A stretch of DNA of 64,000 nucleotides, taken from contig CM027378.1 in NCBI GenBank assembly GCA_015680905.1, positions 9,405,001 through 9,469,000 on the forward strand. The letters run 5' to 3'. The translations under genes and the position numbers were made by a program. The stretch comes from Coptis chinensis (taxonomy: Eukaryota; Streptophyta; Magnoliopsida; Ranunculales; Ranunculaceae). Shown here piece by piece: positions 15,531 through 51,382 of this stretch (its first letter is position 1; every line of letters starts with the position of its first letter). The notes under the pieces are model-generated. The model was not told the origin of the DNA, searched no databases, and worked only from the letters and a program-made list of their open reading frames with translations.

Positions 15531-15581
15531 CTAATAGATCTCAAGACACACTAGAGTTTTACTTGTTTGCTTCCACTTATG

Positions 15582-15745
15582 AACTCACACTGTTGACAAT
15601 GGAGGATTTTACCAAAAGTAGAAAGAAACATGTAAGGGTAATGGATAAGGAGATTCTACCTAATATTTTTTGCTGTTTAGGGAAAGAGAATAGAGCACTG
15701 GATCAGAAATGCAACCTAAGTTATCTCGCTGCAAGTCTCCTCTAA
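15582..15745 (-). promoter_or_regulatory. LINE-2 5' leader with one repeat unit
   Basis: The unit aactcacac...aggattttacc at 15582-15612 matches the three units at 8031-8225 of LINE-1. The rest of the leader runs to the target duplication at 15746. By position it is the place for the internal promoter of a LINE; promoter activity is inferred, not seen. Confidence 0.5.
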
Positions 15746-18902: not shown

Positions 18903-18970
18903 AGTCCGAAGTCCACAGTCCAAAGTCCGAAGTCCAAAGACCCAAGTCCAAAGTCCAAATTCCAACGTCC
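18903..18970. repeat. 7-bp minisatellite, unit agtccaa
   Basis: About 9.7 tandem copies of a heptamer with consensus agtccaa (variants agtccga, agtccac, agaccca, attccaa). The unit differs from the plant telomere heptamer tttaggg. Confidence 0.9.
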
Positions 18971-20204: not shown

Positions 20205-20579
20205 GGCAGCTTCACTAGCCAACGTCGGCATCTAGATTTATCCAATTTGAGCTTCGAAAGTTTGCTACTTCTTTATATGTGGACCCGTTCTGCACTGGTT
20301 TTGTTCTTTTGGAAACTTCGGCTCTAGTCAGGCTCTGTTGGGCTTCATGGGGGTTGAGTGGGAAACTTCAAATATTCCCGTATTCCCGTACTTGGCAGCT
20401 TCACTAGCCAACATCGGCATCTAGATTTATCCGATTTGAGCTTCGAAGTTTGCTTTCTTTATATGTGGACCCGCTTCAGACCGGTTTTGTTCTTTTGGAA
20501 ACTTCGGCTTTAGTCGGGCTTTGTTGGGCTTCACGGGGATCGAGTGGGAAACTTCAAATATTCCCGTATTCCCGTACTT
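20205..20579. repeat. Tandem duplication of about 188 bp
   Basis: Two head-to-tail copies, 20205-20393 and 20394-20579, both start ggcagcttcactagccaac and end with two copies of attcccgta. They differ by scattered substitutions and small indels. The short open frame 20088-20327 overlaps the first copy and is not conserved in the second, so it is not a gene. Confidence 0.9.
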
Positions 20580-28920: not shown

Positions 28921-29577
28921 CTAAAGACTAAGCGTCTCAAGGCTCTTCAATTTCTCAACCGGAGATACATTTTTCGGATGACCACAGTTTTCCAAACAAA
29001 GGGTACAGAGGTTCTCAAGAAAAAGTAATGACTGTGGAAGGGATACAATACGAGTGTGACTCAAATCTAGATTCAAAAGGTTTTTCATTTCTTTGAAAAA
29101 ATCATCAGGGAATTCACTAAAATCCTTATTTCCACTTAGGGACAAGGTTAATAGGTGTGGAACTTGAATTTGATAGGATGGGTCGTGCCTGAGTTTGTTA
29201 GCTATTAAGGACAATCTCCTACATTTACCCAAATCAATATTTGGCCAGTGACTCAATCCTATGGTAGCTTTCACAATAAACTCCTTGCTATCTTCGTGTG
29301 CAATTGATATGGCTGCATCACAAACAAGGTCATGCATCTTTATAAATTGCTCATCTCTTAGTAACAGACACGAAGATACAAGTTCATCAACAATTACATA
29401 ATACTTTCTCCTTGCAACCAATATGGTGTCTCCATCTCCCAGGAGTTTTTCACCCGTCAAATAGCAAAACAATTCTTCCATGTCGATCTTAAAATCTTTC
29501 GGAAATAAGCTACAAAATAAAAAACATATTTTGTGCTCTTCACTTTGCATGTAATTAATTGTAACTCATTTTGATGG
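28921..29577 (-). pseudogene. Captured CC-NB-LRR resistance gene fragment
   Basis: Fragment of an intracellular immune receptor of the RPS2-like coiled-coil NB-LRR class. From the Met at 29550 a 209-residue open frame contains CFLFCSLFPKDF (winged-helix end of NB-ARC), FIKMHDLVCDAAISIA (the MHD motif that controls the nucleotide state), then leucine-rich repeats such as NLLNLDLSHTRIVSLPQS. The same frame extends upstream as SIKMSYN to about 29577 past one stop. P-loop, kinase-2 and most LRRs are absent, so it cannot act as a receptor. It lies wholly between MULE inverted repeats, which indicates capture by the transposon. Confidence 0.9.
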
Positions 29578-32226: not shown

Positions 32227-32882
32227 GCACTTTTAGCAAGAAAGCAAAATTATCCTAACATGAGCAAACGATGCAAAGTATGCTCAAACAATCGAAATTC
32301 GTTTTTGCAAGTTTGGAGTTTTGAAAACTTTTCTTGGTTTATGATTTACTATGCCTTATTCAGAGGAACAATTGGGCGTAAGACTAGGATAGCTCTACTA
32401 CACGGCTCAGAAGAGCAAGCAGTCACGTCACCAAGTGGTGTGCTACAAAGAATCTCACTTGCGATGAATCTGGGGGAGGGGAGTGAGGAAAGTAGTTGGT
32501 CCACCGGAATCTGGTAACTGATTACTATAAATCCTCGTGGTTATATTTTTGTCCTTTTCTAGATAATCGTGACTACTTTAGGCTCTAGTTGATTGATTTT
32601 AATTTAGTTATTTGGTCTAGGGCTTCAAAAATCAAGCATCGTCTGATGTATCTACATTAGGGAATGACTTCCCAATGGTTGTTATGTGGCTCGGGTTCAG
32701 CCTTATGTGTGAATGTAAATTGCAGTGTGGAAATTAAATTTCAAACAATCACATAAGTATGATGAACACAAAATGTATCATCTTAAATGGGCTTCGAGGG
32801 GGTTTAGAATTTACCTCTCAAGCTGTGCTTACACGTTGCTTGAGGAGAAGGGTACGTTAGTTGGCACATGATCTGAGATCAT
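32227..32882. other. Gypsy leader, part next to gag
   Basis: Non-coding sequence between gag and the CACTA insertion point; it should continue beyond the CACTA at 51380. The open frame at 32260-32517 has no recognisable domain. Confidence 0.4.
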
Positions 32883-32942
32883 CATTACAAGAAAATGGGC
32901 CTTTAGCCACGGATGACCCAGAACATTTGCCACGACTCCAAG
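32883..32942 (+). repeat. CACTA left terminus
   Basis: Starts cattacaagaaaatgggcc, then gccacgg and gccacga subterminal units. Preceded by cat, the target duplication. Confidence 0.85.
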
Positions 32943-34666
32943 CTATAGAATCATTTCCTTTGGTTGATAGCTGTTGGTATACTGTAACTTTGTAGAGTTA
33001 GTTTGCTATGTATTGCTCACCTTAGCGCCTTAAGAGGTAATGAAGACTGGCCAAGAGTGGCCGACCTTGTCTGGAACTTAGGATATTGGTTTCATCCATA
33101 TACTATCTTTACTATTTCTCCTCTCCATTTATTAAATAATATTGTACAGATAACAAGAAGAAGAAACTAAAAGTTTAAAGTAGGCTTCAACTTTTAAGTG
33201 TTAGTGTGTTACAAATGGTGCTCATGTGAGAGTTTAAACCCAATCAATAGTCTAGTTTCACTTGAAGAATTGGTATGGTTGATCTTTAACATGTGACAAT
33301 TTTTAATTTTTATTACTCCCTGAAGGTTCTGACAAAATGTTTGTTGATAGTTATGCTTAAGTATTATAAAATATCTAAGGAGGATGCCATTTCCAAAACA
33401 CAACAAACTATTATTAGAACTTTAAATAGCATTAATTTTCTATCTCAACTTTAAATAGGATTTTCCATCGCCAAACTATCAACAAGTTAATATTCACCAA
33501 ACCAAATTATTAGAACGATAAGATTTTTGTTAATGGGTGTGATTGTTTGTCTGTAACGTTATTCAAGTGAAATTGAGCTAGAATAAGGTATTATTTTGAA
33601 GTAGAATATGCTATATTTTAGGTTTTTTGGTAGGTGTTTCTGCTACAATTTTCTTATCGAAGAGATGCAATTATAAAAGATTGTTTTTTGAGTAGTTTTA
33701 AAATGGTTTCGTTGTTTTTCATCTCCTAATTGCTCTGTTGCTTCTTTCTCTTTGGTTTTAACCTATTGTCCTTTAATTTTATTATTTTTCTATTTTGGAA
33801 AAATCAAATTTTAATAGTTGTATATGCTTTACAAAACATTATTTGCTAGGTTTGAGGGGATGAGTTTCACTATGAATTCAATTGGAGGTTTAATTTGTGT
33901 GTTTTCGGAATTGGGAGTATCGACAATATTTCTATTGTGTTTGTATTGTCGTCATTAGTGAATTTGTATGTGCCAAAACACAAATTTTGCTTGGTTTGCC
34001 ACTTACTTTTTTGGTTTGAACTTTAAACTGTATAGTCATAATATATAACTATTAAAATACAGATTCTTTGTTGCTTTGAAATATATTGCTAAAAATATAT
34101 TTATTTGTTACGCTTTTTTTAGCTCAAGAAGGTGACGCCTCAGTGCTCATAGGGTTCTCTTGTAGGTGTTTTACTTACTACGGAGGTGAGTTGCCAAATT
34201 ATTAAATGTATTTTGTTATTGGTTGTATGTGTGGATAAAACAACTATGTAAAATGGATTTATTTCATTTCAATATAGCTCATTTGGATATGCTCACTTAA
34301 TATATATTTGTTTTCAATCAATGTGACCTCCCTGGATGGTTGAGTTTTAGTTTTCTTAGTTGGAGCATATATATTGCACACATATTCCTTTTAAAAAAAT
34401 GGATTTACATTGATCTTTAATTTGTTTTGTTATTGTCTCCTTTGCTTTATCATTTACAAATATTTTTCTTTTTCATTACAATTATTGCTTAGGTTTTAAA
34501 TATAGATTTATGTCCATTAAAATAATTCATGTTTAGAGATTTTGTTAATTTGGTTAGACATTTTTGCTTGAGATGAGGGCTTGGGATAGGTGTATTCATG
34601 AATGGATCATGCTATTTATCTTGTATATAGTTTGAACTTGTGCGCTTGTTTATTTGTAGATACGTC
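32943..34666. other. CACTA 5' region, probable leader of the transposase gene
   Basis: No coding frame recognised. An AT-rich region of this length ahead of the transposase start fits a promoter and 5' intron; a likely splice acceptor (tttgtag) is at 34652-34658, just before the ATG at 34667. Confidence 0.4.
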
Positions 34667-36690
34667 ATGGAGGGTTTTTCTCCAAATGATAGAAGTAGTT
34701 GGGTGAATTTAGACTACCATGACACCCAGTTTATAAATGTTATGAACTTTGTGGTAAAAAACTACTGTAACAAGATCTTCATGCCGTGTTCTTGTCGTGT
34801 GTGTAAAAATGGAGGGAAAGCAAAAACCTACGAACTTGTGAGGTATCACATCTATAAAAACCAATTCGACCCAACATATTTAAACTGGATATTTTATGGT
34901 GAAGAAAGACATGATCTCAATGCACGCAAAGACTTGAAACTTTTGGGGATAAAGAAGAAGTATTGGGTGATAGACAATAATCGTAAAAAGCGTGGAGTGT
35001 TCTGTCTTACACCTGCCGAGAAGTCTTTGTTTTTTACCACTTTAAGAAACATGCGCGTACCTGTTGGTTTTAGTAGCAATTGGAGGATTATTGTCAAGGA
35101 GGGGTCCATGGAACTCAAAGGGATGAAGTCTCATGACTATCACATTCTAATGCAACATTTGCTTCCTGTATTGATCCAACACGCATATAAAGATCGGAAG
35201 GAGGCCCAGGGTATTATATTGAGTTTTTGTACTTTTTTTCGTGCTCTATGCTCAAGGAGAATTGAAGTTGATGCGTTGGTTATACTTGAGATGGGTATGG
35301 CCAGAACCTTATGTGAGCTTGAGAAGATGTGTCCTCCATCGCTTTTTGTCATAATGATACATCTTCCCATTCATTTAGCCTATGATGCCCGCGTGTTAGG
35401 ACCAGTGTTCTATCGGTGGATGTATGTCTTTGAAAGGTATACTTAGATAAAAAAAACTTTTCACATAATTATTTGGTTTTATTTCTCGTACTTTCTATTT
35501 AAGTTTTGTTATTTAAAGGTTAATGAAGCAGTACAAGGATTATGTTACTAATAAAGCACGTCCAGAAGGTTACATTGCTGAGCGATACTTGAAGGAGGAG
35601 ACAATGATATACTGTGGAGGATACGAATGAGGGGGTGGCCTCCTTCGAAAGCTAGAAGTGTGCACCTTGGGTTTTGAGGTGACAATGCCTCCTGGTTTGC
35701 TTGATGAAGTTGACAAAGTAGGTCCTCTTGGTCCAAGTAAACGTTACCTTTTAGAGGGTGTTGAGTGGGAGCAAGCACGTAAGTGGATATTGAAAAGTCA
35801 TCCAAAGTATGAAATGTGGGAGAAGTAAGTCTATTGTAGTTTACGTGTATGTATTTTTCAATTACCAAATAGACATTTTTATATTATTTATTGTGCTTTT
35901 ATTAATGATATTGAACAGAGAGTACAATAACTTCCTCGAGGTCTGCAAGAGAAACACAGGAAGAAAGTCTGGCCAGTTCAAAGTACCTGAAAAAGACGAG
36001 TTCATGCCATGGTTAAGGAGACAACTTGATGTTCAAAACCCGAAAGATGACGAGCTTATAGAAATAGCAAGGGGACCAGCACGTTTTGCCATAACATATG
36101 AGAAGTATACAGTCAATGGATTTTTATTTGTCACAAAAGATTATGCGTTGACTAAAAGAAACCAAAACAGTGGAGTTTGTACCAAGTGCCCAACTACCTT
36201 TCGCTCAAGTGCTAAGGATAAAAATCCTATAGAAGCATCTGCTAAATACTACGGTGTTCTTAGGAAAATTGTTCAATTGGAGTACCGAAATATTGATTAC
36301 AAACCAGTGTTATTCAAGTGTGATTGGGTTAAGCTCCCGAACGGTGTGAAGGTGGATAACAAGTCAAAAATGTTGTTGGTCAATCTATCCAATATGCTTG
36401 GTTCATCTCAAATGAATGACGAGCCATTCATTCTTACTGAGCATGTATCCCAGGTCTTTTACTGTAAAGACCCAGTGAATCTTGATTGGCATGTGGTTAT
36501 TGAGGTTCCAAGAAAGGTTTATTCTGATCTGGACTCAACAAGAGTAGTGTCAGAAAATATAGTTGTGGATGAATCGTTCGCGAGGCCTATCATTCCAGAA
36601 CGTATGGAGGATGAGTTGATCTTTAATGAAGAGAATATAGTTGCTGCTGTTGAGGTTATCAACCAAAGAAAAAGACCTAGAAAGAAATAA
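34667..36690 (+). pseudogene. CACTA transposase gene lacking the catalytic domain
   Basis: TNPD/TNP2-type gene in three exons. Exon 1 (34667-35436) starts with a Transpos_assoc domain (MPCSCRVCKNGG, then YLNWIFYGEE), runs at about 34920 straight into the region after the catalytic domain (ARKDLKLLG), then DUF4218 (GMKSHDYHILMQHLLPVLIQ, HLPIHLAYDARVLGPVFYRW). The whole Transposase_21 catalytic domain, several hundred residues, is missing in frame. Exon 2 (35519-35824, GT-AG introns) continues ARPEGYIAERYLKEE and has a stop at the TGA near 35628. Exon 3 (35919-36690) is DUF4216 (QNSGV, KDKNPIEASAKYYG, VLFKCDWVKL) and ends in a basic RKRPRKK. It cannot cut DNA; movement would need a partner element. 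Confidence 0.88.
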
Positions 36691-36883
36691 GATGGTATAT
36701 TATTATATGAAATCTTTTGTTCCGAGAATTACATATTTAAACCTGTTTTGATGCTTGTTATGAATTCATATTTAAATTAGTGGTTCACGTTTTTAAATTA
36801 GTGTTTCACATTTTGACTAATTTTTGAATTCGTTTTTTGTTATTTGTACGTTGATCCTTATTGTATTGATCATTAACTTAAAT

Positions 36884-36986
36884 ATATATGCAAGTGCTTG
36901 TTTAATTTGCAGAGTCTAGTTGTCGCTCTGTACTATGGCTAACATTATATATGCAAGTGCTTGTTTAATTTGCAGAGTCTAGTTGT
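36884..36986 (+). repeat. 40-bp direct duplication over a splice-acceptor-like site
   Basis: Copies at 36884-36923 and 36947-36986 both contain caagtgcttgtttaatttgc followed by agagtctagttgt. Each includes a pyrimidine-rich tract and AG that could act as a 3' splice site for the downstream Transposase_24-like gene. Confidence 0.8.
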
Positions 36987-37130
36987 AGCACATCTCCAAA
37001 TTCAGCTCACCCACTAGAGGACTCCCCCAACACTAACATTGGTAATTAGTTTATAATTCATTATTATCTGATTAAGTTAATTATTTCCATTTCATCCTTG
37101 TATAACATCATCAGTTTTTGCATTATCAGG

Positions 37131-38869
37131 TGGGTCTGCTACTTCACGACCGCACTCAGATAACACTAGAGGTCCTACTCTACCTATATCCGATCATTTG
37201 GAAGAGGGGCAAATAACCAACCTGATTTTCCTAAAGAAGGTGTCAATAGACTATCTAGTGAAGTTGCTCGCCTTGCGGACCGTGAGATCCCATGCTTTTA
37301 TAAGGATTGGCCAACTATGATGAAACTCAATAAAGGAACTCACTATACCAACATCATTAAAAGCTTGAACGACACTTTTGTATTTGTTAATGGTGACGAA
37401 GACAAGGGGGTAGACTGTAAGTATGTTCGGGATAAAGTCATGGCCGCTTGGAGGAGCCACAAAGGTGAATTGAAAAAGAAATAGGTTGTTGGTAAGGATC
37501 CAGAAATTGTGAAAATGAAGGCACCAGACGGAATCCCTTTGGAGGATTGGAAAGCTTTTGTGAATCATTGTAATTCAAATGAATTTAAGGTACTGTCTTA
37601 GACATTCTAACGATATACTATACGATATGCCCTGCCTTTACTAGCTTATAAGATGCAAAGCAAACTGTAACTTAATTTGTGTATGTTATGTAGGCATTAA
37701 GTGCGAGAAATGTTCAGAACCGTGCAATGCAAATTGAACCAAACTGTGGGGGGAGGACACCAACACAAGTTTATCGCCATAAAATTGCAAATGAACAAGG
37801 TGTGTCGGTGGAAGAAGTTGATCGGGGTGATATGTACGTAGAAATGCACACACTTAAAAAAAGTGGTACACCCCAACGACAAAGTTTGGCAGTAAGTCTT
37901 TATTTTATATGCTTTTTTCTTGGATGCTTAGTCAATGCATCACTTATATATATATATATATATATATACTATTTAAAAGTGTATGCTTCCTCAGTGATAC
38001 ATCTGTGTTATCTATATGATTTTAGAATGTTTTTATGTTTTCCATTAAATAGGATAAGATTTCTCAACGTTCCCCTTTGAACTCTAACACGACCTCCAAC
38101 TCCGACTTTGAAGCATGCGACAATGATGTTGTGACAGAGGTATGAATTATACTTTGCTCAATTTTTTTTTACTCCTCGAATTAAAATCTCCAAGTACACA
38201 GGTTGTTGGTAAAGACTCAAGAGGGAACATGCGGGTCATGGGTTCTGGTGTTTCTAAATCTTCATTTAAGCATTCGACTCCTTATAGGAAGAGATATCAT
38301 AAACAGATTAAGGTCACTGAGAAGTGAAAAAATCAGTTTGAAAAGAAAATTGATGAGCTGAAGGACTCATTTGATGGAAAAGTAAATCAGATTAATGAAA
38401 CGGTGCAGAATCTTGTCCGCCATATGCCACCCACATGTAATTCCCCTGCTGGACCCTCTTCTTCTGGATCACATGATATATTCTCTTAGGTACGAATACG
38501 TATGACTTTATTTTATTCTCATAGTAATAGTAAAGATTAATGGTTTATGTATTTGAACTTTTAACTAATGTTATTTTATTTTATTTTTTATCTATTTTTA
38601 AAGGGACCCGATTACATGAATGCAGAAGTCAATGTGAGAGCCTTTTGGCCCTTGAGAAAGGTTGCATCTAGGAGGGTGAAACAAGTTGATCCAACATTTA
38701 GGGTTGGAGATAGAACTTTGGGGGATGGAAAATTCTTGGTTTACATTGAGGCGATTACTATAGGTTCTTGCGAATTGCCTGAGCCCTATAATCACTTTCG
38801 TTCCCTTGGTTAAGTTGGGCAGGAATATGTTATTTGGCCTAAGGAATTTCTGCAATCCCCCCCCCCCCC
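37131..38869 (+). pseudogene. CACTA second gene, Transposase_24-like
   Basis: Multi-exon gene typical of the second CACTA protein. Inferred exons with GT-AG borders: 37131-37589, 37694-37891, 38053-38139, 38202-38489, 38604-38869. Readable motifs are EVARLADREIPCFYKDWPTM, PLEDWKAFVNHC, GRTPTQVYRHKIANEQG and a coiled coil FEKKIDELKDSFDGKVNQI. The last exon holds FWPLRKVASRRVKQVDPTFR and ends near VIWPKEFL. In-frame stops occur after ELKKK, after KVTEK and after DIFS, so it is decayed. A (TA)n run at 37949-37970 and a C run at 38858-38870 are in or next to it. Confidence 0.75.
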
Positions 38870-39647
38870 CACCCTCGTTGTTAAAGGCCATTTCTCCTCT
38901 TTTAGTAGACACATAGTGTCATTTTCATCTTGGACTTGGAATTATTTTATTTTGTATTAGTCAAGCCAGGATTTTGGACGTGTTACTTTACTTTTTGGAT
39001 ATATTGTTTTGTTATGGATACTTTCGATGTGTTATTTTGTTTTATGGATATTTTGGCTGTGTTATATGTTGGATGAGCTTGTTTTATAGATATTTTGATT
39101 GTGCCGTACTTGCAATTGTGTGGTTGTTTGCTTACTTTTTCAGGTGATGGGATTCACTGTACTAATCTAACCCCTTTTTAGCTCTGCCAACGCAAACTAG
39201 ATATTTGCATTGCTGGTCCCAAGCCCAGATAAAGGAGGAGGGAAAAGGCAAAACTGATTGGTTTTTGCAGGTTATAAAGTGAGAGAAACCTCACCCTGTC
39301 CCTTGAAGCACAAGAATATGTAGATTTAGTTGCCGAGTTGAATAATATAGTGTCTGTAATTCAAGTGTTATTGGTAAGTTATTCTGTATAGCCCTGTTAC
39401 TTTGATACTTATCCATTTTTTTTCTCCCAACGAACACTGAATCTCTTGATAATTTCTTGAAGGTGAGAATTGTTCGTAGCCTAAGAGGTTTGAGTTTTCT
39501 GGAGGTTCTTCTTGGAATAACAAGCATTAGGAAGGTAGAGCCTTACATGCCCTGATTCCTCCGTTCTCACAAAGGAAGGTAGAGCCTTACATGCAATCCC
39601 TACTTTATGACGTTTTAAGGTAAACCCTTATATTTCTTGGTATGTAG
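38870..39647. other. CACTA internal, possible unidentified exons
   Basis: No gene recognised with confidence. 39300-39373 reads in one frame as AQEYVDLVAELNNIVSVIQ and is followed by GTAAG, and 39463-39537 reads VRIVRSLRGLSFLEVLLGI; these look like exons of a further captured gene that I cannot name. A 22-bp direct duplication with aggaaggtagagccttacat is at 39532 and 39573. Confidence 0.4.
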
Positions 39648-40330
39648 GCTCAACAAAAGTTACAACCACTGGCCCTCCAGCAGTAAATGGGTATTCGAGG
39701 CGTCAAAATCCAAAAGCAAGCTTCAGAGTGGTTCAACCAGAAGTTGTACCAAGGTATCTATATCAGTTTCAGAATTTTAAGGACTTAATAGAAATGTCTG
39801 TCAGTATTGATGCTAGTTTCTACATTTATGCCTTGAATACTAATTTTATCTTGCTACATTTAAAAACATAAAAACTAATTTTAAGCCATGCTACATTTAT
39901 CTTGCTCTTCAGATCTACTAGTTTTGAACGCTGAAGAGTCCATATTGATTGTTCCCTGCTTTTAATACAGGAAACCTTAGACTCTGTTGTAGATGAGCAG
40001 ACTAACAATCATGGTAGCTCACATGATGGAAATCATGAGTTGGCTGTATATTATTTTATAGCTACATTTTTAATTATCATACTTCTTTCTATTTTTCTCT
40101 TGTTTCAAGGTCTTGAATACTAAACCTAGAATAATGTGTTTGCTATTTTTTGAATAAATGCAGAATCTCTTAGTGGATTGGATCAGCTCGAGCAAAATCC
40201 CGAGCATAAGCCCATTTCTATCGAGAAGGCGCATGAGTAGACAAGAGGGTAAGCATATATTGTAGAAGAAGAAGCATGTCTACCAAAGGTTCAAAATCCT
40301 TTAGTTTTTGCAAATCGTCTAACGCCTTTC
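39648..40330 (+). pseudogene. Captured GTE bromodomain factor fragment, part 1
   Basis: Three probable exons ahead of the Copia insertion: 39648-39753 (AVNGYSRRQNPKAS), 39971-40045 and 40164-40330 (SLSGLDQLEQNPEHKP, then a TAG). The LDQLEQ segment resembles the low-complexity linker before the C-terminal region of plant GTE8/GTE10-type factors, and what follows the Copia (45837-46528) is that region. GTE proteins bind acetylated histones through a bromodomain, which is not present here. Assignment of the first two exons is by position and weak similarity. Confidence 0.5.
40326..40330. repeat. Copia target site duplication, left
   Basis: ctttc, repeated at 45837-45841. Confidence 0.9.
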
Positions 40331-40998
40331 TGTTGGAGTTATCCCTCATATGAGGAGAGAAACTGGAGCTGGAGAGAAACGGGCGAATTCGCATCGCGAT
40401 AAGTCGAGCGCTAGCGGCCAGATGAGCGCGCCAGCCGAGTTCCAAAGAGAATAGAGGCGACCAGCTCAAAGTGAAGCGCCAGCCACTCCAGCTTCCAGTC
40501 TTCAGCGACTCGCCAGAGGGAGAGCGCCAGCCTCGGCCATAATTTTGTGGGCCTTGCTACAAGATACCCTGAAATTTGGTTTTTGGAGATAAAACCAAAA
40601 TCAAGGTTTTGGAAAACCTAACCAAAACAAGTCAGAAGGATTGGAATCTAGACTAAAGCAAAGAGAGATAACCTTTACAGAGATACAACCCGGTAAAAAG
40701 ATAAGAGTGATCTAGTAAGGTGAGAGACTGAAAAGGAGAGATTGTAATCTTCCTTCCCACTTTATTAAGAACTGGCTCTTGTGGAAGTAGGCATCATTGG
40801 CCGAACCACGGTAAATCTTTGTGTTGTGGTTTGCTTTTACTGCTTTACATTATTATCTGTTGTTAATAGTTATTTAGCGAGTTGGGCATGTTAGTATAGG
40901 TTGTAGTTGATATTTGAGATTTATCTGGAGTTGAAGTGTGTTCATACAAGTTATCTGTGTAGTGGGGGAACCGATTGGTATTGGTGTAATCCCCAACA
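40331..40998 (+). repeat. Copia 5' LTR
   Basis: Starts tgttggagttatccc and ends taatccccaaca. The last 420 bp or so differ from the 3' LTR by only a few bases, while the first 230 bp differ by many small indels. Confidence 0.93.
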
Positions 40999-41000
40999 AG

Positions 41001-41012
41001 TGGTATCAGAGC
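41001..41012 (+). other. Copia primer-binding site (initiator Met tRNA)
   Basis: tggtatcagagc, two bases after the 5' LTR, complementary to the 3' end of plant initiator tRNA-Met. Confidence 0.93.
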
Positions 41013-41108
41013 CCAGGTTAGAATAGCCTAGGGTATTATCCGAATCTTGGTCAGAAGGTGTTTGACGAAATTCCTGAGAGAAGATTTGAGGTTAAATAAC
41101 TTGTAGAG

Positions 41109-44100
41109 ATGGACCATTCCGTGAACACTCGTATGATGAGTCTGAATAGGAAGAACTACACCATCCGGAAAGCCAAGATGGAAGACTTGCTATACCGCAA
41201 GGACTTGGCACTTCCCATTGAGAATGAGGGAGTAAAACCGAAAAGACCCGATGAGGCCGAAAAAAAAGCTTGACGAAAAGCTATTGGGTACATTCGATAA
41301 TGGATAGACGATGGTGTCTTTCACCATGTGGCCTAAGAGACTACAGCCTTCACCGTGGAAGAAACTCAAGACTGTATGAGAGGAAGTCGGTGGAAACAAA
41401 GTACTACTAGTTAAGAAGTTTGCGCACACACGGCACCAAGAAGGTTCTTCAATGTCCGAGCATCTTAATGAAGTACGTAATATCATCAATCGATGCATTT
41501 GATGAAGATCAATTTGGGAGACGAAGTTGAGGCTTTGTTTCTATTAGGCTCTCTACCCGAGTTGGGAGACATTAGCGCTTCTCTACATGGAGCAGCCAAG
41601 GATGGAATTGTTACCATGGAGATGGCTACCACGCCTTTGTTGAATGAGGAGACTAGAAGGAGTGCAAGAAGCAGCTCTTCTAACTCGCAGGTCCTTTTCA
41701 CGAGAAACGGGGAGAGGTCGGCGAAAACCATCTCGCTCTAGAGGTGATGACGTATAAATCTAGGGGTGAAGCTAGAACTCCTAAGGCGAGAGGCAATGTT
41801 ACTATTGTGCCACCAAAGGTCACTTCAGATATGAGTCGTGAGAACAATCAAGAGGGATGAGAAGAATAACCGTGTACATGAAGACATGGTGCGAGGAACG
41901 GAAACACAAAGGAGATACTACCGCACTAGTCGACGACCTAGTGGGAATTGTGTCGATTGTGGTGTGTCTTTGTCTTAGTACCTCATGTCGATACGAGTGG
42001 GTGATAGATACGGGGAGCATCCTATCACGCCACAATCGCACGAGGGATTCTTCACTACCTACAAACCGTGGTGAATATGGTGAAGTGAGGATGGGTAACG
42101 ATGGAGTCTCAAGATTATAGGCATTGGAGATGTTCATGTAGAAACCAATGTCGGCTACACCTTGACACTCAAGGATGTAAGACATGTCCCCGACATACGG
42201 CTAAGCCTAATTTCGGCCGGGGAAATTAGATGACGATGGCTTTGTAAACTCGCTTGGTAACGGGTATGGAAACCGAAAGCGCAGGTTCCATTGTAGCCGC
42301 CAGAGGAAAGAAAAAACTTGCTCTCTTTACAAAACACGCTAGTTTGTGTAAAGCGAAGCGAATGCAGCAGAAGAAGCTTCATCCGAATCGTGGCACAAGA
42401 GACCGTCACATGGGCATAAAAGGGATGGAAGTTCTTGCTAAGCAAAAGGCCATGCCGGACATTAAAGGTACACATTTAAATACATGTACTCATTGTTTGG
42501 TAGGAAAGCAACACGGGTGTCTTTCCAAAGATTCCCGCCTCACGAAAGGACATTGTCCTTGAGCTAGTGCAATACCGCACTTATGTGGTCCTATGAGAGT
42601 GAAGTCCCACCGTGGAGCTTCAGACTTCTTGACATTCATTGATGATGCATCAAGAAAGATATGGGCCTATAGTCCGAAGACCAAGGATGAAGTACTTGGC
42701 GTGTTTGAGAAATTCCACAAAGATGGTGGAAAGAGAGACCGGGAAGTTGTTGAAGTGTATTCGCCGATAATGGGGTGAGTACATTGGGCCATTTGAAGAG
42801 TATTGCCGAGTCATGGGATTTGTCATGAGCGCACCGCCCCAAGACACCGCAAATGAAATGGAATAGCAGAAAGAATGAACCGCACCATTGTAGAGAGGAT
42901 AAGATGCATGTTATCTCACTCTAAGCTACCTAGAAGCTACCGGGTAGAAGCAATGCGCATACCCGTGCATGTAATCAACCTGTCACCAAAGAAAGCCTCC
43001 GAATAGTGATTATCCGAGAGAGTATGGTCGCAGAGATGTTGATTATGGATACTTGAGGGTATTTGGGTGCGTGGCATTTGTGCATATTCCGAAGGATGAG
43101 AGATCAAAGCTTGATGACAAAGCCAAGCAAATGCATTTTTCTGGGTTATGGAGATGAAAAGTTTGGTTACAAACTCTATGATCCGATTAACAAGAAGGTA
43201 ATCCGAAGTCGAGATGTTGTGTTCTTAGAAGACCAAACCATAGCAGACTTTGAGGAGGGTGAGAAGCTGAGGGCTTTCACCAATGATCTTGTTGATTCAT
43301 AACCAGAAGTTCCTACTGTGGAACGTGCAGAAGGCATTGAGAATGCAGAGAACCATGAGTTTGAAGCTCATGATGAGAATCATATTGCTCATGATGGGAT
43401 AGAACCTATTGGTATAGAAGATGCGATGAGATGCATGAACCACCACCGAGCAGCGGAAGTGCATCCTCCCGAGGCACCGCCAGATGGGGCAAGGAGGTCC
43501 GACAGGGAGAATAACTTCAACCAGGTATCCACCACATACGTCGCATTACTACTATCCGATGGTGGAGAACCTATGTACTATCAAGAGGCACTTGAAGGTA
43601 CGCACAAAAAGAAAAGTGGTTGAAGGCCATGCATGACGAGATGGATTCTTTGCATAAGAATCACACTTATGAAGTTAGTTGAGAAACCCACAGGGAGAAA
43701 AGTTCTCAAGAATAAGTGGATATACAAAGTCAAGCATGAGGAGAACAATCCTCACCCAAGGCACAAAGCTCGCCTTTGTTGTGAAGGGATTCGGTCAAAG
43801 GAAATGGATTGACTTTGATGAGATTTTCTCTCTAGAAGTGAAGATGACTTCTATCCGGTGGTATTGGGTATGGCCGCAAGTATGAACCTAGAGGTTGAAC
43901 AGCTAGATGTTAAGACAGCTTTTCTTCATGGAGACCTTGAAGAAGATGTCTACATGGACCAGCCAGAGGGGTTTGAGGTCAAAGGCAAGGAGCACCTAGT
44001 ATGCAAGCTGATAAAGAGCTTGTATGGGTTGGCAAGCACCGAGAGGGTACATAAAGTTTGACTCCTTTATGGTGAAGCAAGGATACAAGAAGTCTGCTTC

Positions 44101-44884
44101 CGATCATTGTGCGTTTGTTCAGAGATTTCCAGATGGGGATTTCATAGTGCTATTGCTGTATGTGGATGATATGTTGATAGTTGGCCCAAACATCAACAAG
44201 ATATCCAAGCTGAAGAAAGACTTGAGTAAGTCCTTTGAGATGAAGGATTTGGGTCAAGCAAAGCAGATACTTGGGATGGATCATCACTCGTGACAGAAAG
44301 AGTGGGAAGTTGTGGCTTTCAAGAAAGCTACATTGAGAAGGTGTTGAAGAGATTCAACATGGATCAAGCGCCCGGTCGGTTATTGTCCGCTTGGTGGCCA
44401 GTTCCGCATGACCAAAGAGATGTGTCCTAAGGGTGAGCATGAGCAGAGTCAGATGGAAAAGATTCCTTATGCATCCGCAGTGGGCAGTTTGATGTATGCC
44501 ATGGTGTGTACTAGACCGGATATTGCTTTCGCCGTTGGGGTTGTAAGCAGATTTCAGTCAAATCGGGTAAAGAACATTGGGAAGGTGTTAAGTGGATATT
44601 GAGATATCTCAAAGGCACTTCCAAATCATGTTTGTGCTTTGGTGGAAGTAAGCCCTTACTTGAAGGCTACACTGATGCAGACATGGCAGGTGATGTTGAC
44701 TCGATGAAGTCCACCTCCGGTTATCCGGTTACTTTTGCGGGGGAGCGGTGTCTTGGCAATCTAAGTTGCAAAAGTGTGTTGCCCTCTCCACTACGTAAGC
44801 CGAAAGTATATTGCAGCCACCGAAAGTGTTGCAAAAGAGTTGCTATGGATGAAGAGGTTCTTCGACGAACTAGGGCTAAAGCGT
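41109..44884 (+). pseudogene. Copia gag-pol polyprotein, many frameshifts
   Basis: Domains in order across frames: gag from ATG 41109, with HLMKINLGDEVEALFLLGSL (41492-41551); a zinc knuckle near 41795 (CYYCATKGHFRYES, last Cys changed to Ser); protease WVIDTGS at about 42000; integrase with CTHCLVGKQH (42487), FLTFIDDASRKIWAY (about 42630) and FLGYGDEKFGYKLYD (43140); reverse transcriptase with VEQLDVKTAFLHGDLEEDVY (about 43892) and the YVDD active site at about 44158; RNase H with SLMYAMVCTRPDIAFAVG (about 44480) and LEGYTDADMAGD (about 44660). At least ten frameshifts or stops make it inactive. It would supply cDNA synthesis and integration if intact. Confidence 0.92.
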
Positions 44885-45172
44885 AAACAGTTTGTAGTTC
44901 TATGTGACCGGTCGGAGCCATCCACTTGAGCAAGAATCCGAAGTTTTCATTCTAGATCCAAGCACATACACGCATGCGTTATCATTGATTAGAGAAGTAC
45001 TTTCAAGACAAGCATTTGTGTATCGAGAAGATCCATACCGACAAGAACGGGTCGGATATGATGACCAAAGTCTTACCGAAAGGGTAAGTTTGATGTTTGT
45101 TGTGCTATTGCCGAATGGCGAAAGACACTCCTCCCGCTGATTTGGCAATTGCATGGAGGTATCCCCCTCACC

Positions 45173-45186
45173 GCTCGGGGGGAGAT
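45173..45186 (+). other. Copia polypurine tract
   Basis: ctcggggggagat directly before the 3' LTR; primes plus-strand synthesis. Confidence 0.8.
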
Positions 45187-45836
45187 TGTTGGAGTTATCC
45201 CTCACATGAGGAGAGAAACCGGAGCCGAGAGAAACGGGCTTAATTCGCATCGCACAAGTCGAGCGCCCGCCTCGAGTTCCATAGAATAGGGCGACCAGCT
45301 CAAAGTGCCAAAGCCAGCGCCAAATTTCCAAAAGTCTTCAAATTTACTTCGCTTCCAGAGGGAGCGCCACCGCCGGCATAATTTTGTGGGCCTTGCTACA
45401 GTACCCGCGAAATTTGGTTTTTGGAGATAAAACCAAAATCAAGGTTTTGGAAAACCTAACCAAAACAAGTCAGAAGGATTGGAATCCAGACTAAAGCAAA
45501 GAGAGATAACCTTTACAGAGATACAACCCGGTAAAGAGATAAGAGTGATCTAGTAAGGTGAGAGACTGAAAAGGAGAGATTGTAATCTTCCTTCCCACTT
45601 TATTAAGAACTGGCTCTTGTGGAAGTAGGCATCATTGGCCGAACCACGGTAAATCTTTGTGTTGTGGTTTGCTTTTACTGCTTTACATTATTATCTGTTG
45701 TTAATAGTTGTTTAGCGAGTTGGGCATGTTAGTATAGGTTGTAGTTGATATTTGAGATTTATCTGGAGTTGAAGTGTGTTCATACAAGTTATCTGTGTAG
45801 TGGGGGAACCGATTGGTATTGGTGTAATCCCCAACA
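45187..45836 (+). repeat. Copia 3' LTR
   Basis: Partner of 40331-40998, followed by the duplication ctttc at 45837-45841. Confidence 0.93.
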
Positions 45837-46528
45837 CTTTCCTGCCCAACTTAGAGGAAAATGCTCAACCTGAGAGGCAAGTCTCCCCAGAAAAGCTTTA
45901 TCGAGCAACTTTGTTGAGAGACCGGTTTGCTGATACTATACTCAAAGCTCGACAGAAGACTCTCGATCAGGTTGGTTACAAATTTAGGCTGGGTATTGAA
46001 ATTTACCATGTTCGTACCTATCCATTTTCTTAGTGTTTTATGCTCCGGATGTGATTGGGTACAATTTGATTTGCTGAGGTTAGGGTGAAAAGGGAGATCC
46101 TGAGAAACTGTAGCGTGAGCGAGAGGAGCTTGAAAGGAAACAAAGGGAAGGTTTGGACTTCTAACCTGTTGCATGGAAACTTTGATTTCTTAAAGGTTGT
46201 TTACTTAGTTACTAACATCTTTGCGTTAATGGTGATTAATTATAAGTCGTGTTTTTATGAGATCAGAAAAAGCTCGGTTGCGGGCAGAGGCCAAAGCTGC
46301 AGAAAATGCTCGGAGGCAAGCTGATGCAGAGGCTGCAGTTGAAGCCAAAAGAAAGAGGGAGCTTGAGAGAGAAGCTGCACACCAGGCTTTACAAAATGTA
46401 AATAACCAGAATTCTTACTTCAATTTCCGTTTAGTAGATCTGTACTGAAAGCGTTCGTTGAAATTATCCTCTTGTTGTATGCAGATGGAAAAGACGGTTG
46501 AAATCAATGAAAACTACCAATTTCTGGA
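45837..46528 (+). pseudogene. Captured GTE bromodomain factor fragment, part 2 (C-terminal region)
   Basis: Four exons with conserved GT-AG borders: 45837-45970 (QVSPEKLYRATLLRDRFADT, then ILKARQKTLDQ), 46084-46150 (GEKGDPEKL, TAG, then REREELERKQRE), 46267-46397 ([20 protein letters not shown] and [17 protein letters not shown]) and 46485-46528 (MEKTVEINENYQFLE). This is the conserved charged coiled-coil region of plant GTE8/GTE10-type transcription factors, downstream of bromodomain and NET domain, neither of which is here. One nonsense codon is at 46111. The last exon runs without an intron into ARF2 sequence. Host role of the family: chromatin-reading transcriptional regulators. Confidence 0.85.
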
Positions 46529-46931
46529 ATGATGAACTGCTCACTAAATTAGACCATATGTTTGATTTTAATGGGGAGTTGATGGCTCATGGAAAAAATT
46601 GGCAAGTTATCTACACTGATAATGAAGGAGATACGATGTTCGTGGGAGATGGCCCTTGGCAGTAATTACTCATTTTTTTTCTTTATATTTTTTACTACGA
46701 AATTAAAGCAAAAGTTGCATTTATGTTCAATCTCTCCCATTATTTGTCTACAGGGAATTCTGTAGCATGGTTCGCAAGATCTTCATCTACACAAGGGAAG
46801 AACAGAAAATGAACCCAGGGACTTTGAACTCAAAGGTTGACGAAAATCCTGTGATTGCAGAGGAAATAACAAGGGCTAAGGAAACTATTTCATTGCCGGT
46901 GCCCTCTGCAACTAGTCCTGAGAACTGCTAA
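46528..46931 (+). pseudogene. ARF2: Captured ARF2-like auxin response factor C-terminus (PB1 domain)
   Basis: Two exons, 46528-46661 and 46754-46931, with a GT-AG intron at the position usual for ARF genes. The first reads NDELLTKLDHMFDFNGELMA and VIYTDNEGDTMFVGDGPWQ; the second EFCSMVRKIFIYTREEQKMN, PGTLNSK, and a native-looking stop after SPENC. This is the C-terminal PB1 domain (acidic OPCA motif DNEGD...GD) of ARF2, through which ARFs and Aux/IAA proteins pair. The DNA-binding B3 domain is absent. Both exons are open, so an isolated PB1 peptide could be encoded if fused to an upstream frame. Confidence 0.9.
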
Positions 46932-47054
46932 GCTTCTCTCACATGGCTAGCTTGGTTAGTAAGTTGTTGGGATCCTTTCACATGACAATGTCGATGATTT
47001 AACAGTCTATGGAAGGGATAATTAGTGGTTGTGTGGTTTGAACTCCTGCTTCAG

Positions 47055-47192
47055 GTGATGAACTTAAGGAGTCAGATTGCAAAGGTCAAGTGGATTATGT
47101 GCTTCCATCGTCAGAGGAAGAAGTTGAACCCTCGAAGTTGAGTGAGTCATTGTCCGTAATAGAAGAAGAAGATTTCCCTATCTGTCTTGAAG
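47055..47192 (+). pseudogene. Captured RING-type E3 ligase fragment (one exon)
   Basis: Exon bordered by tcag and a GT donor. It reads YVLPSSEEEVEPSKLSESLS and then EEEDFPICLEG, resembling the acidic stretch and first RING residues (CPICLEE) of a group of small plant RING E3 ligases. The first zinc-binding Cys is Phe here and the rest of the RING is absent, so it cannot bind E2. The assignment rests on a short match. Confidence 0.45.
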
Positions 47193-47818
47193 GTACCATT
47201 CTTATTTCTAGATTAAGTAGACTTCCACTGCCCTTTTCATTTTTATTTGGTCTTTGTAGTATTGGGTTTGCATGTGCTCTATTAGTTGGTACTCTACACT
47301 GGTACACAGCATATAAATGATCATTCAAGACGGCAACTCTTCAGTTGAAAGGCTCTACGTAACGAATGCAACTATGTTTCCATATTGTGATCGCAGCTCG
47401 ATAAGGGAGGGTTTTGCATTTGGTAGCATGGGTCAGACTGCGGATACCTTTAAAATGCCTTATTACATATTCCTCCTAGAGGTTGTTTACTTGCTTTGGA
47501 GTAAAGTGGTTTTCAACAGAAACTAAAGCTAGACGTTAGAATTATTGACATATATCGTTCTCATGGTATTGCATTATATTTCCCTTGACACATTTTTTTT
47601 TATCAAATACTCATTTTCGTATTCTTTTTACAATCAAGGAAGCCTAAACTATAAGCAAATATTGCAGATAAATGTACAAAATGTTTGCGATCCTTGGTAT
47701 GTTTTATCAGATAATTTCTTTTTTTTTATCGGTCAATGTTATGTCTGTAGTAAATTGCCAATTAGTACGTTTTTTTTTTCCTTATTGATTTATCCATCTT
47801 CTTAAACTACTTTTAAGA
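47193..47818. other. CACTA internal, intron-like
   Basis: T-rich, intron-like sequence between the RING and DSE1 fragments. The open frame at 47317-47526 could include exon sequence (FGSMGQTADTF) from an unknown gene, but I recognise no family. Confidence 0.35.
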
Positions 47819-48051
47819 CTTTGTGCCTACTGAAGGAACACAATATATAGCTATAGCTGGAGAGAAATCTTCTGGGGTGAGTACATAAATCTAATGATTT
47901 CGGCGTTTTGATTGCTCGTATTATTACCTTATATTACTATTTGATGGATATCCAAAGGTTGAGATTTGGGATCTCAATAGTGCAGAGCGGCTAGCACGAT
48001 TACCTCAGTCTTGCAATGGAAGCTCCTTGGATCATGGTACAAAGGCAAGAG
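47819..48051 (+). pseudogene. DSE1: Captured DSE1-like WD40 protein, two exons
   Basis: Exons 47819-47875 (PTEGTQYIAIAGEKSSG) and 47958-48051 ([25 protein letters not shown]) separated by an intron with AG border. They match the middle of the plant WD40 protein DECREASED SIZE EXCLUSION LIMIT 1 (GNB1L-like), which affects plasmodesmatal transport. The next exon of the same gene is at 50096-50161, and the exon phase (AGA G / GG ATG) fits, so the SEUSS fragment sits inside this gene's intron. Recognised from memory of the family; a search should confirm it. Confidence 0.7.
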
Positions 48052-48689
48052 GTTTGTGTTTATGCTTATACCATTTTTTACTATTTATGTAGCCCTTCTC
48101 ACAATTGGTTACCAATATACTCAACAGTTATGCTGCATATCGAACATTCAACTCCTTCTATTTATACACATGATGAATTTGCTTTTCCCATTTGCGTATG
48201 TCATTGAATCATGGCAGACATGTAAACCACATTCATCGTAGAGTAGATTTTGGCATATGTTCATTTTGATACTCAGTATTGGCCATGGGGCAGTAGTTTA
48301 ACTGCTCTAAACTGCATTTTGATGATTCTAATCTATTCTTCGTTGGTGGTTTTGTAAGTCTTATTTTTGTATAATATGCCTGGCCATTGTAGTGAATTAT
48401 CTGTAATGGGTTTGTGCCTTTGTCGCATAATTTCTCTTTGCATTTCAGTACTTGCAGTTTAATTGTATCTATAACGCTGTTTTCATTAACAGAAATAATG
48501 AGAAGAAAAAAAAGAAAAGAAAAACAGCATTGCTTTTTGATTACCAGTCCACATCTTGTTTTAAATGATAAACATCGGTTGACTTCATTCTAGTGTCCAT
48601 ATCTAGTAGTGCATCTTTATTTAAGTAAATATTTGCTATTCAGTGATTAGTTATTTTCTATGCATAATTATGATACTGAATGCATAATT

Positions 48690-49889
48690 ATGATACTGAA
48701 TCTTACATGCGATTACCTACTTCACCTATGTCATTCTCTTCCAATAACATCAGCATTTCAGGTTCTTCAGTGATGGATGGATCGTCTATAGTGCAACAAG
48801 GCTCTCATCAGGATCAGAGTCCTCAGCAAGGTCAAAAGAGGCAACATGGGGCTTCTACAGCTTCCTCTCAGCTGGCATCACGAACAGGTCAAGTTTCATT
48901 TCTAAATGGCCAGGTCCCCAGCTCCTCAAATCTAGAGGTGAACTATTTGACTCAAATATAGAAAAAGCCTAGATTAGACATCAAGTAGGAAGATATTTTC
49001 CAACAGCAGGTCATGCAGCAGCTGCTTCAGAGACAGGACACAATCCCCAAATTCAAGCCTTAATTTAGCAGTAGAGACTTTTACAGTGGCATCAACAACA
49101 GTCGCAACAGATTTTGCAATCTATGCCATAGATGCAACGAGTGCAATTGCAACAACAGTAGCAACAACAACAACAGCAGCAACAACTGAGGCAGCAAATG
49201 CAACAACAAGGTCTGCAATCTGTATATGGAGTTAAGCGCCCCTATGAGAGTGGTGTATGTGCTTGCTGATTAATGCAGTACATTTATCATCAACGCCATC
49301 GCCCTCCTGTAAGTTACCTGTACATTGATCTTAAGCATACTGTTTCTCTGCTCCTTTACCAACTTTTCAATCTTTGCCAAGTCAAAACTTTTTATATGGT
49401 GTTTTTTTTATATATGTTGCTTGGTGAATTCACGTAAAAAATTCTTCATTCAGTTACACAAGTAATCTCTATTTGTGTGCTCTTTCCTTTGTAGGAGAAT
49501 ACAATTGTTTATTGGAGGAAATTTGTAGCAGAATATTTCTCCCCTCGTGCCAAGAAAATGTCGTGTTTATCTTTATATGATAATGTTGGACAACATGCGC
49601 TAGGGGTATTCCCTCAGGCAATGAAGGTTAGTTTTATTGGCCAGTGTCATATCATTGAAGTTAATGACATCAAAGACCTCTCGGTCATTTGTTCAAGAAA
49701 ATCATTTGAACGTGTAAATTTTCATGCGAATATGTTCACTGTATAGATCATCACAATACCGATTTTTTTTTTCTCTTTGGTATCCTATCTTACTCATTCT
49801 ATTTTGTGTTACCTCATGAACTATATCATGTTTGTTTCAGGATGCATGGCATTGCGACATCTGTGGTTCTAAATCAGGAATGGGGTTCG
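48690..49889 (+). pseudogene. SEU: Captured SEUSS-like co-regulator fragment
   Basis: Three exons. The first (about 48690-49308) reads SPMSFSSNNISISGSSVMDG, GSHQDQSPQQGQKRQHGAS, KKPRLDIK, a Gln-rich stretch (49085-49215) and LMQYIYHQRHRPP. The second (49495-49626) reads NTIVYWRKFVAEYFSPRAKK and CLSLYDNVGQHALGVFPQA. The third (49841-49889) reads DAWHCDICGSKSGMGF. This is the Gln-rich region and the start of the Ldb1-like domain of SEUSS, the partner of LEUNIG in transcriptional repression. A frameshift near 49050 and six TAG codons at Gln positions (48959, 48986, 49066, 49072, 49129, 49159) break it. An (ATT)n run follows at 49903-49927. Confidence 0.93.
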
Positions 49890-50095
49890 GTAAGACTATT
49901 AATATTATTATTATTATTATTATTATTGTTTATTTATTTTTTAAATTAAATTGCAAAGTTTGATCATTTTCGTATCATGCTAGAGTCTCCAACCCATCCG
50001 TCAATTATTGTCTTTATAAGCTTATGAGTTTATAATTGTGTTTTGCTACTTTTTTTTTTTGCATTAGTTGACTTTACCTTGTGATGTTATGGCAG

Positions 50096-50161
50096 GGATG
50101 TGCATGGCTATTCAGGCTTTTGTACCATCTGAATCTTAGGGGTTTTTGAATGTTTTGGCTG
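50096..50161 (+). pseudogene. DSE1: Captured DSE1-like WD40 protein, later exon
   Basis: Exon after ggcag reading GMCMAIQAFVPSES, stop, GFLNVLAG. It continues the protein of 47958-48051 in phase. The TAG at 50137 replaces the Gln of the family (SESQGF). About 2 kb of SEUSS-bearing sequence separates it from its neighbour exon. Confidence 0.7.
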
Positions 50162-50435
50162 GGTTTGTTCTAAAATATTTTGTCCGTTACATATCAGCAA
50201 TATTATTAGTATGTTTATTCTGTTCTGCATTTGCAAATACTACTCTTTTATTAGTATGTGTGACTTTTATATGTTTTTTTTGCTTAGGGAGCATTGTTTC
50301 ACTCACACAAGATTAATTTGTTTGAACTAGTTCTAACTTAGTTGTTTTTAATTAATCCTAGTTTTTTTTTTCTTTTAAGGCATTCAGATTGTGACTTCAT
50401 TTTTTTGTAACTAAGAATTAAATTGACCTTTACAG

Positions 50436-50870
50436 AGGAAAACACGTACACCTTCCAGTAGCCTCAAGTGTATTCTGCTCATCTTGAAGGAAACATTGAC
50501 GCAGCTTAGCAAGCATACTTCGTCTTTGGGATTTGAAACTGGATTGTGAGCAACAATTTATATATGATGTACTAACTAGTGATACGAATTTGTGTGTCTT
50601 ATTTGAGTTGCAGGTACTTGAAGAGTAGCCTTGGGACTCTTGAAAAAGATGTTGAGAGGAGATTCAATTATGCTCCAAGTAGAGAAGATATCAAGAATGT
50701 CATACTTAGAGACCATAAATATAGCCATAAGTCCTGACCCAGTTTATTAAAGTTTCGGTGGATGCTCATGAAAAGGTTAAGGCTAGAGTTCTAAAAAGCT
50801 AGGACTTCAAATCATTTCCGAAAGTATTCGAGTGCATGGCAATGATAAAACGTAACGGAGAAGCATGCAC
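50436..50870 (+). pseudogene. Unidentified captured coding fragment
   Basis: Coding-like sequence on plus in at least two exons. 50436-50547 reads in one frame VYSAHLEGNIDAA, stop, QAYFVFGI. 50613-50742 reads LEKDVERRFNYAPSREDIKN then VILRDHKYS; after a one-base shift it continues FIKVSVDAHEKVKARVLK, DFKSFPKVFECMAMIKRNGE to about 50870. The amino-acid composition and residual frame suggest a real protein, but I do not recognise the family. It would be a sixth captured gene. Confidence 0.45.
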
Positions 50871-51027
50871 GAGGTGAATTTTTATTAGGAAATATTTGGA
50901 AATTCATATTTATATTGAGCTTGGATAGTAAATTCTACAATTTTTTTTTTTTACTTGTATGAATATTAATCTCTTTATCATCTGTTTTTCAGTAAAGGAA
51001 TACTGATTGGGAATATGTGTCTTCTTA

Positions 51028-51379
51028 TGCCACGGCTTTTATCCCTTGTAAATTTTGAATGCTACGGCTTCTACCACAGCCCTCATTAGTGGAACTAGCA
51101 ACGGCTTATGCCACGGTCGCCCTCTGTAGAAATTGCTATGGCTGTTGCCACGGCCATTAGCACTAGCAATTGCTACGGCTATTCCCACGGACCTTATCAG
51201 TGGCAAGTTGCAACGGCTTGAGCTGTCGGGTGGACCGTCGCATGTACCCACAGTCTTATGCTGTAGCTAAACCTTTAGCGACAAGTCAAAACCCCACGGT
51301 CTTGCATCAGTCAATATCCTTAGCAAAAGAGCTTTACCACGGACTTGGGTCATGGCTAAAAGTCTGCTTTCTTGTAGTG
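51028..51379 (-). repeat. CACTA right terminus with subterminal repeats
   Basis: About a dozen imperfect units of gccacggct / gctacggct type occupy 51028-51350, ending with cttgtagtg, the inverted CACTA terminus, and the duplication cat. Such arrays are the binding sites for the TNPA-type protein in CACTA elements. Confidence 0.85.
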
Positions 51380-51382
51380 CAT

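Follow-up and report, generated by a model that had tools for sequence, protein, structure and literature searches.

How plant terminal inverted repeat (TIR) transposons acquire pieces of host genes is an open question, for which there are two rival models. The question is raised here by a 64,000-nucleotide stretch of the Coptis chinensis genome (contig CM027378.1, C2:9405001-9469000; hereafter the window), which holds a defective CACTA element of the Pack-CACTA type at 32883-51379 (+) with pieces of host genes inside it, some nested within others. All comparisons were run against the same genome (935.6 Mb in 116 contigs); other loci are given as contig and Mb. Where the filled and unfilled states of one site are available together with the source gene, the sequence itself shows the joints, the loss of target DNA and any templating, and the models become open to testing over 14 or more family copies. 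From such comparisons, we consider it probable that this Pack-CACTA gained its host DNA stepwise, through aberrant repair of breaks inside itself.

Host-gene fragments in the element and their sources

The element carries six host-gene pieces, from an ARF2-like gene, a GTE bromodomain gene, a RING gene, DSE1, SEUSS and a DUF3143 gene. All six are on the plus strand, in sense with the transposase, an arrangement with a chance of 1 in 64 if the pieces are independent, which nested pieces may not be. The initial annotation had claimed pieces of at least five unrelated host genes on the plus strand, all in one orientation with the transposase and captured as DNA with introns kept, and this was borne out by matching loci elsewhere in the genome and by aligning the pieces with their source loci, introns included. 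The one unidentified gene that it listed besides the five also stands as an extra gene, and is now named as the DUF3143 gene. Two of its other claims did not hold. The pieces had been placed side by side, whereas the GTE piece, with a copia retrotransposon within it, interrupts ARF2, and SEUSS interrupts DSE1. Since the copia element takes up 40331-45836, the captured DNA amounts to ~5.7 kb (39519-40330 plus 45842-50740) and not 12 kb, 5.5 kb of which is copia. The ~5.7 kb includes ~0.3 kb of no assigned gene (50257-50550, +), a segment also present at five other loci.

The outer gene of the first stack is ARF2, with an internally deleted first part at 39529-39822 (+) and a second part, comprising the PB1 and last exon, at 46526-46980 (+). 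An AUX_IAA/PB1 domain of an ARF was recognized at 46462-46662 (Pfam, 25.2 bits against a cut-off of 22.7), and the relatives of this piece in PDB are ARF5 and ARF7. The candidate source at C2:24.40 Mb, introns included, was picked for its matching PB1 exon (87%) and for the ARF_AD exons that precede it in order. Inside ARF2 lie the two parts of the GTE piece, 39862-40330 (+, 96% to C5:18.12 Mb) and 45837-46529 (+). When all 18 candidate matches were scored, 16 fell at 14 family loci, and the others were the source at C5:18.12 Mb (96%, introns included) and a 68% paralogue, the next match outside the family. Both the source (C5:18.11 Mb) and the paralogue at C6:59.47 Mb have a bromodomain on the same strand 6-7 kb upstream, and its presence upstream of the source supports the GTE name.

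The RING E3 fragment follows at 46983-47342 (+), with one stop and a Cys to Phe change at ED(C/F)PICLE. It has candidate sources at C3:117.02 Mb (introns included) and C9:17.98 Mb. The C9 match extends 16 bp further left with an exact 20-bp stretch, and by substitution divergence C3 is nearer (0.061 vs 0.081). DSE1 is present at 47333-48676 (+) and 49985-50253 (+), with candidate sources at C2:50.50 Mb (introns included), C2:108.74 Mb and C2:108.83 Mb at roughly equal distance. Between its halves is SEUSS (48695-49991, +), which has a single candidate source, C3:119.62 Mb, with introns included. The last piece, at 50575-50734 (+), matches DUF3143 at 50576-50734 (Pfam, 25.3 bits, cut-off 25). 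Its source at C3:116.69 Mb matches over 143 bp and is the sole native locus found for DUF3143 in the genome; the third genome match is the element copy at C2:4.59 Mb. A cluster of three sources on C3 (116.7-119.6 Mb) was considered as a sign of local capture and dropped, as the RING source may be C9:17.98 Mb. Pfam searches gave no match for the GTE, RING and DSE1 pieces. The names ARF2 (as opposed to another ARF), RING type and DSE1 are ones we assume from general resemblance and from the labels of the initial annotation, and we take SEUSS to be so named from general resemblance together with a LIM_bind match at 49495 that is slightly under threshold (24.1 bits, cut-off 24.2).

Filled and unfilled states of the nested sites

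Both nested sites have relatives in the unfilled state. At C4:15.72 Mb and C4:48.99 Mb are element copies without GTE, in which ARF2 is continuous through the GTE site, and both retain ~72 bp of ARF2 that is absent from the window. A clean loss of GTE could not restore this ~72 bp, therefore GTE came in. The second site is read from a copy at C9:18.26 Mb (L050) and from the C2:50.50 Mb locus, where DSE1 is continuous through the SEUSS site with 4 bp more than in the window. L050 carries DSE1 through DUF3143 without SEUSS and continues into the right part of the element, with a family left-end match ~15 kb away on the same strand. Kimura two-parameter distance (K2P) to the source falls inward through the ARF2 stack, from 0.073 for ARF2 to 0.031-0.034 for GTE and 0.007 for the 3′ part of the copia long terminal repeats (LTRs). 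These values come from the top local match with gaps omitted, and we read them as ranks and not dates because the sources are partly constrained genes.

The left joints of the ARF2, GTE and SEUSS pieces hold patchwork or doubled sequence. The element body meets ARF2 at 39519-39528. Two element-only copies (L019, L020) part from the window sequence after 39518 and continue as shared element DNA, while the window continues with a 22-bp ARF2 word that occurs twice. This word is doubled in five of the nine copies read there and single in four; a tenth locus gave no match. Between ARF2 and GTE lies a 39-bp filler (39823-39861, +) made largely of words from the GTE source: five overlapping exact words of 10-12 bp are found there on the same strand, four at 439-472 and one at 362 or 677 of the source sequence (L045), in which the captured part begins at 428. 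GTE-source 10-mers cover 30 of the 39 bp, and those of four other sources cover none on either strand. No control reached 30, whether drawn from flank 39-mers (0/6272), shuffles (0/5000) or AT-rich 39-mers (0/5258), the last having a maximum of 23, with 17 of them covered over at least 20 bp. All eight GTE copies compared at that joint share this filler, apart from a few substitutions, and it therefore arose in a single event. A 20-bp tandem repeat crosses the DSE1-SEUSS joint (48660-48699, +); it was not found in the C2:4.58 Mb copy in a search by exact string only. Microhomology or overlap is present at the GTE-ARF2, RING-DSE1 and SEUSS-DSE1 joints, and at the exits the pieces simply overlap by a few bases.

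For the nested steps we favour template-switch break repair, because target DNA was lost and the ARF2-GTE joint holds patchwork filler. Another gene would be the template for repair of a break in DNA already captured, copying would start falsely on it more than once, and the gap would be closed at short homology; the repair may have been polymerase-theta-like or by synthesis-dependent strand annealing. Family copies would then have spread by ordinary CACTA transposition with transposase supplied in trans. Later events in the window copy would be the loss of the transposase core and the left subterminal region, a segmental duplication, and the copia insertion.

The spread of the cargo can be followed in the family. 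DNA was read at nine of the 14 GTE family loci; upstream of each of the remaining five lies a match to the family left end. All 26 matches to the last ARF2 exon with RING were scored; the joint is spanned at 15 loci, 13 of them with GTE. A check for paired termini in other copies gave a positive answer. Seven more copies were fetched besides the window and its duplicate. In five, the element could be delimited at both termini, and four of these have identical TSDs (target site duplications, 3 bp) of their own, AGG, ATC, AAC and AAT in element orientation, with the fifth differing by one base (CCG/CTG). The C2:75.89 Mb copy had no exact 12-bp terminus within the stretch examined, and the C3:71.43 Mb copy was left out of the pairing, its right end being outside the fetched stretch. 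Judged from their own TSDs, cargo-bearing copies on C4, C8, C5 and at C2:24.89 Mb have transposed.

Two observations concern the form of the cargo in these relatives. In the copy at C1:16.016 Mb the ARF2 piece is longer, extending into ARF_AD, and this copy probably stands close to the initial state of the ARF2 capture. Five kin copies have ~1 kb of other DNA between the RING and SEUSS pieces (L031:3275-4270 and four more), which is well conserved among them.

Competing accounts of the mosaic

In the model favoured for plant Pack-TYPE elements in the accessible text of two reports (PMC8903248, PMC13317346), two nearby elements move as one with the DNA between them (the Catoni model, for Pack-CACTA). 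Such a fusion could fit the first capture, between the element body at 39518 and the right end, but as the origin of this mosaic we judge it unlikely. It predicts element ends beside the new DNA, and the window has 10 near matches to the 12-bp TIR where 9.9 are expected by chance. With this 12-bp pattern, which would miss longer subterminal remnants, no TIR remnants were found at the nested joints, and five kin copies have exact termini at their two ends only, within the fetched regions. Nor does fusion predict target loss, patchwork filler, or a gene piece within a captured intron. The GTE and SEUSS steps thus appear to disfavour neighbour fusion and to favour template-switch repair of the kind proposed, in the accessible part of that report, for animal Pack-TIR elements (PMC8277862).

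Recombination or template switching between Pack-CACTA copies, each with single captured genes, could also have built the mosaic, and we give this a minor though appreciable chance. Kin copies do differ in the subsets that they hold: at C1:81.06 Mb and C1:81.08 Mb the DSE1-SEUSS part is present from 47401 onward with no ARF2-RING match, and the C9:18.26 Mb copy lacks SEUSS. Exchange of this kind may well have joined the ARF2-RING and DSE1 halves. For the GTE step it meets two obstacles, as none of the nine family copies read has GTE without its ARF2 neighbours, so that no GTE donor element is seen, and the filler words derive from the GTE sequence itself.

A different proposal treats the cargo as a chimeric gene under selection, or as a source of trans-acting small RNAs that regulates ARF2, SEUSS and GTE. 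The shared sense orientation with the transposase and the presence of GTE at 14 loci, which implies that the cargo has spread, are both in its favour. The coding state of the pieces makes it very improbable. Against the source, the ratio of nonsynonymous to synonymous substitution (dN/dS) in the GTE coding parts of nine copies is 0.42-1.70, and five of the nine contain stops; the two lowest values, 0.42 and 0.48, belong to the C6 and C5 copies, of which the C5 copy has three stops. In the window a TGA stands right at the GTE-ARF2 joint, with an earlier stop in the GTE exon, GTE and ARF2 are out of frame, and RING is broken. The initial annotation suggested that read-through could give chimeric transcripts. 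These stops, the one in RING and the deletion of what by eye looks like a putative promoter region argue against a chimeric protein, and the cargo is most likely without protein function. The auxin and chromatin regulators among the captured genes add no shown function. Differences between the window pieces and their sources comprise 85 C>T/G>A against 29 T>C/A>G, with direction unpolarised; we make no claim of family-wide methylation decay, because in five other copies the corresponding counts for the GTE pieces are 43 and 50.

That the pieces are ordinary native loci, or an artefact of assembly, is the least credible reading, and we regard it as close to negligible. The native-locus version was rejected, given sources and further copies elsewhere and copies with their own TSDs. 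An artefact might be suspected from the duplicate at C2:4.55-4.60 Mb, which matches most of 1-57531 at 92-97% and could be a misplaced haplotig, and from the many small indels of the copia body, which look like consensus errors. However, independent copies on C4, C8, C5, C6 and at C2:24.89 Mb have their own flanks and share the joints, and the window flanks differ from those of the duplicate by a K2P of 0.043.

Several points weigh against stepwise repair inside the element. The ARF2 source is a judgement, as the last exon is nearer to C1:23.25 Mb (95%) than to C2:24.40 Mb (92%), and the source is also ambiguous for RING (two candidates) and DSE1 (three similar loci). Overlaps of 1-5 bp may be no more than chance would often give. 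The divergences of DSE1 (0.038-0.047) and SEUSS (0.042) give no order for the second stack, and neighbour fusion could still account for the first capture, that of ARF2 at 39518. The steps are moreover reconstructed from DNA comparisons.

We speculate, with low confidence, that captured gene DNA is itself a preferred entry site for further capture. Breaks in captured introns would be filled by copying genes in the same orientation. False starts would mark the left joint and short homology the right, giving the cargo a polar growth from within that might be tied to the element's transcription or replication. This idea comes from the patchwork filler and duplicated words on the left, at the ARF2, GTE and SEUSS entries, as against the simple right joints.

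The carrier element and comparable systems

With host-gene fragments whose sources lie elsewhere, the element is, by its structure, of the known Pack-CACTA kind. The initial annotation considered the combination unusual, and as a kind this was not upheld: Tgm-Express1 of the soybean wp allele, as described in the accessible text, is a non-autonomous CACTA of 5.7 kb with intron-bearing fragments of five unrelated genes, for which transcripts are shown (PMC1947982). The window element is likewise a non-autonomous CACTA with multiple intron-bearing host fragments. It differs in its six pieces, its remnant transposase genes (none are mentioned for Tgm-Express1 in that part of the report), its multi-copy family, and its nested captures with un-nested relatives, and it is described here at the DNA level. 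Beyond the five-fragment precedent, what appears notable is the readable, stepwise and nested before-and-after record with copied filler.

Pack-CACTA elements of Arabidopsis, rice and maize are similar in having CACTA ends and captured coding DNA, those of maize often from several loci per element, and a Pack-PIF cluster shows stepwise internal insertions of 163 bp and then 58 bp; the authors infer fusion of neighbouring elements, according to the text available (PMC8903248). Animal Pack-TIR elements, as far as the accessible text describes them, resemble the window element in capture within the element (by gap filling and FoSTeST), breakpoint microhomology and before and after states. They differ in being single captures in animal TIR elements, whereas here one capture lies inside another in a plant CACTA (PMC8277862). 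CACTA-like elements of Chenopodium also contain captured host gene fragments, flower-development genes included, but in the part of the report available these are single short fragments 5′ of the transposase, unlike the six pieces here (PMC8978399).

The ends bear out the earlier description of one 18.5-kb CACTA with CACTA termini and a 3-bp TSD. The left end at 32883 is CATTACAAGAAA, with one mismatch to CACTACAAGAAA, and the right end at 51368-51379 is exact CACTACAAGAAA on the minus strand. CACTA...TAGTG TIRs are thus present, the left (CATTACAAG) with one substitution and the right exact, and CAT stands at both 32880-32882 and 51380-51382. Subterminal repeats had been reported at both ends, and they are clear at the right only, where CCACGG-type repeats occupy 51028-51344 (-), with six CCACGG in 356 bp at a spacing of ~37 bp. 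The left 318 bp hold only one, because ~0.7-0.9 kb beside that end is deleted relative to two kin copies. The deletion point is at 32978-32981, and ~0.7 kb is missing in comparison with the C3 copy and 0.9 kb with the C2:24.89 Mb copy; in one kin copy the lost stretch resembles a promoter and 5′ leader, as judged by eye.

A transposase remnant at 34631-35446 (+) has Transpos_assoc running straight into DUF4218 in a single frame (Pfam). About 1.5 kb with Transposase_21 is deleted at about 34911-34922, across the 6-bp repeat ATGATC, and is retained by kin on C3, C4 and C2:24.89 Mb; in the C4:79.75 Mb copy the retained stretch scores as Transposase_21 (Pfam, 150 and 121 bits). A DUF4216 open frame (35794-36690, +; Pfam) and a weak Transposase_24 match (37694-38080, +; 20.8 bits, under the cut-off of 28.7) follow. 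The window copy therefore keeps remnant transposase domains without the catalytic core, and since the Transposase_21 core is absent, the element, as defined by its ends and kin, is a non-autonomous member of the CACTA (En/Spm) superfamily. Most of the transposase region is missing from two short kin copies on C8 and C5, each ~7.8 kb long.

The Ty1/copia LTR retrotransposon inside the GTE piece (40331-45836, +) has LTRs at 40331-40998 and 45187-45836, RVT_2, and the TSD CTTTC at 40326-40330 and 45837-45841; with these features present, a reading of 40331-45836 as extra host exons was rejected. Neither the C2:4.58 Mb copy nor the GTE source contains this retrotransposon, and in the source the two halves of GTE adjoin (428-892 and 888-1582 of L045). 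Dating was restricted to the 3′ part of the LTRs, which have three differences in 428 sites (K2P 0.007), and excluded the first 210-230 bp, rich in small indels; whole LTRs are 90.3% identical with 25 gap openings. Many small deletions affect the copia body and the initial 230 bp of the LTRs, though the 3′ LTR parts are 99% identical, and these deletions look like consensus error in the assembly.

Window positions 1-57531 are mostly duplicated on the same contig at C2:4.55-4.60 Mb with ~92-97% identity, and the duplicate lacks several window insertions, among them 9773-15745 and 18850-20726. The element copy within it, at C2:4.58 Mb, shares the CAT TSD, and its left end, CACTACAAG, is intact, without the window's substitution. 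An independent transposition was rejected for this copy; because both flanks and the TSD are shared with the window, we regard it as a segmental duplication or a misplaced haplotig. Elsewhere in the window are LINE-like reverse transcriptase frames (4280-5239 and 9866-13396, both -; RVT_1, RVT_3), a PIF/Harbinger-type transposase frame (17391-18062, +; Plant_tran, 200 bits), and a leucine-rich-repeat frame similar to an NB-LRR fragment (28924-29565, -).

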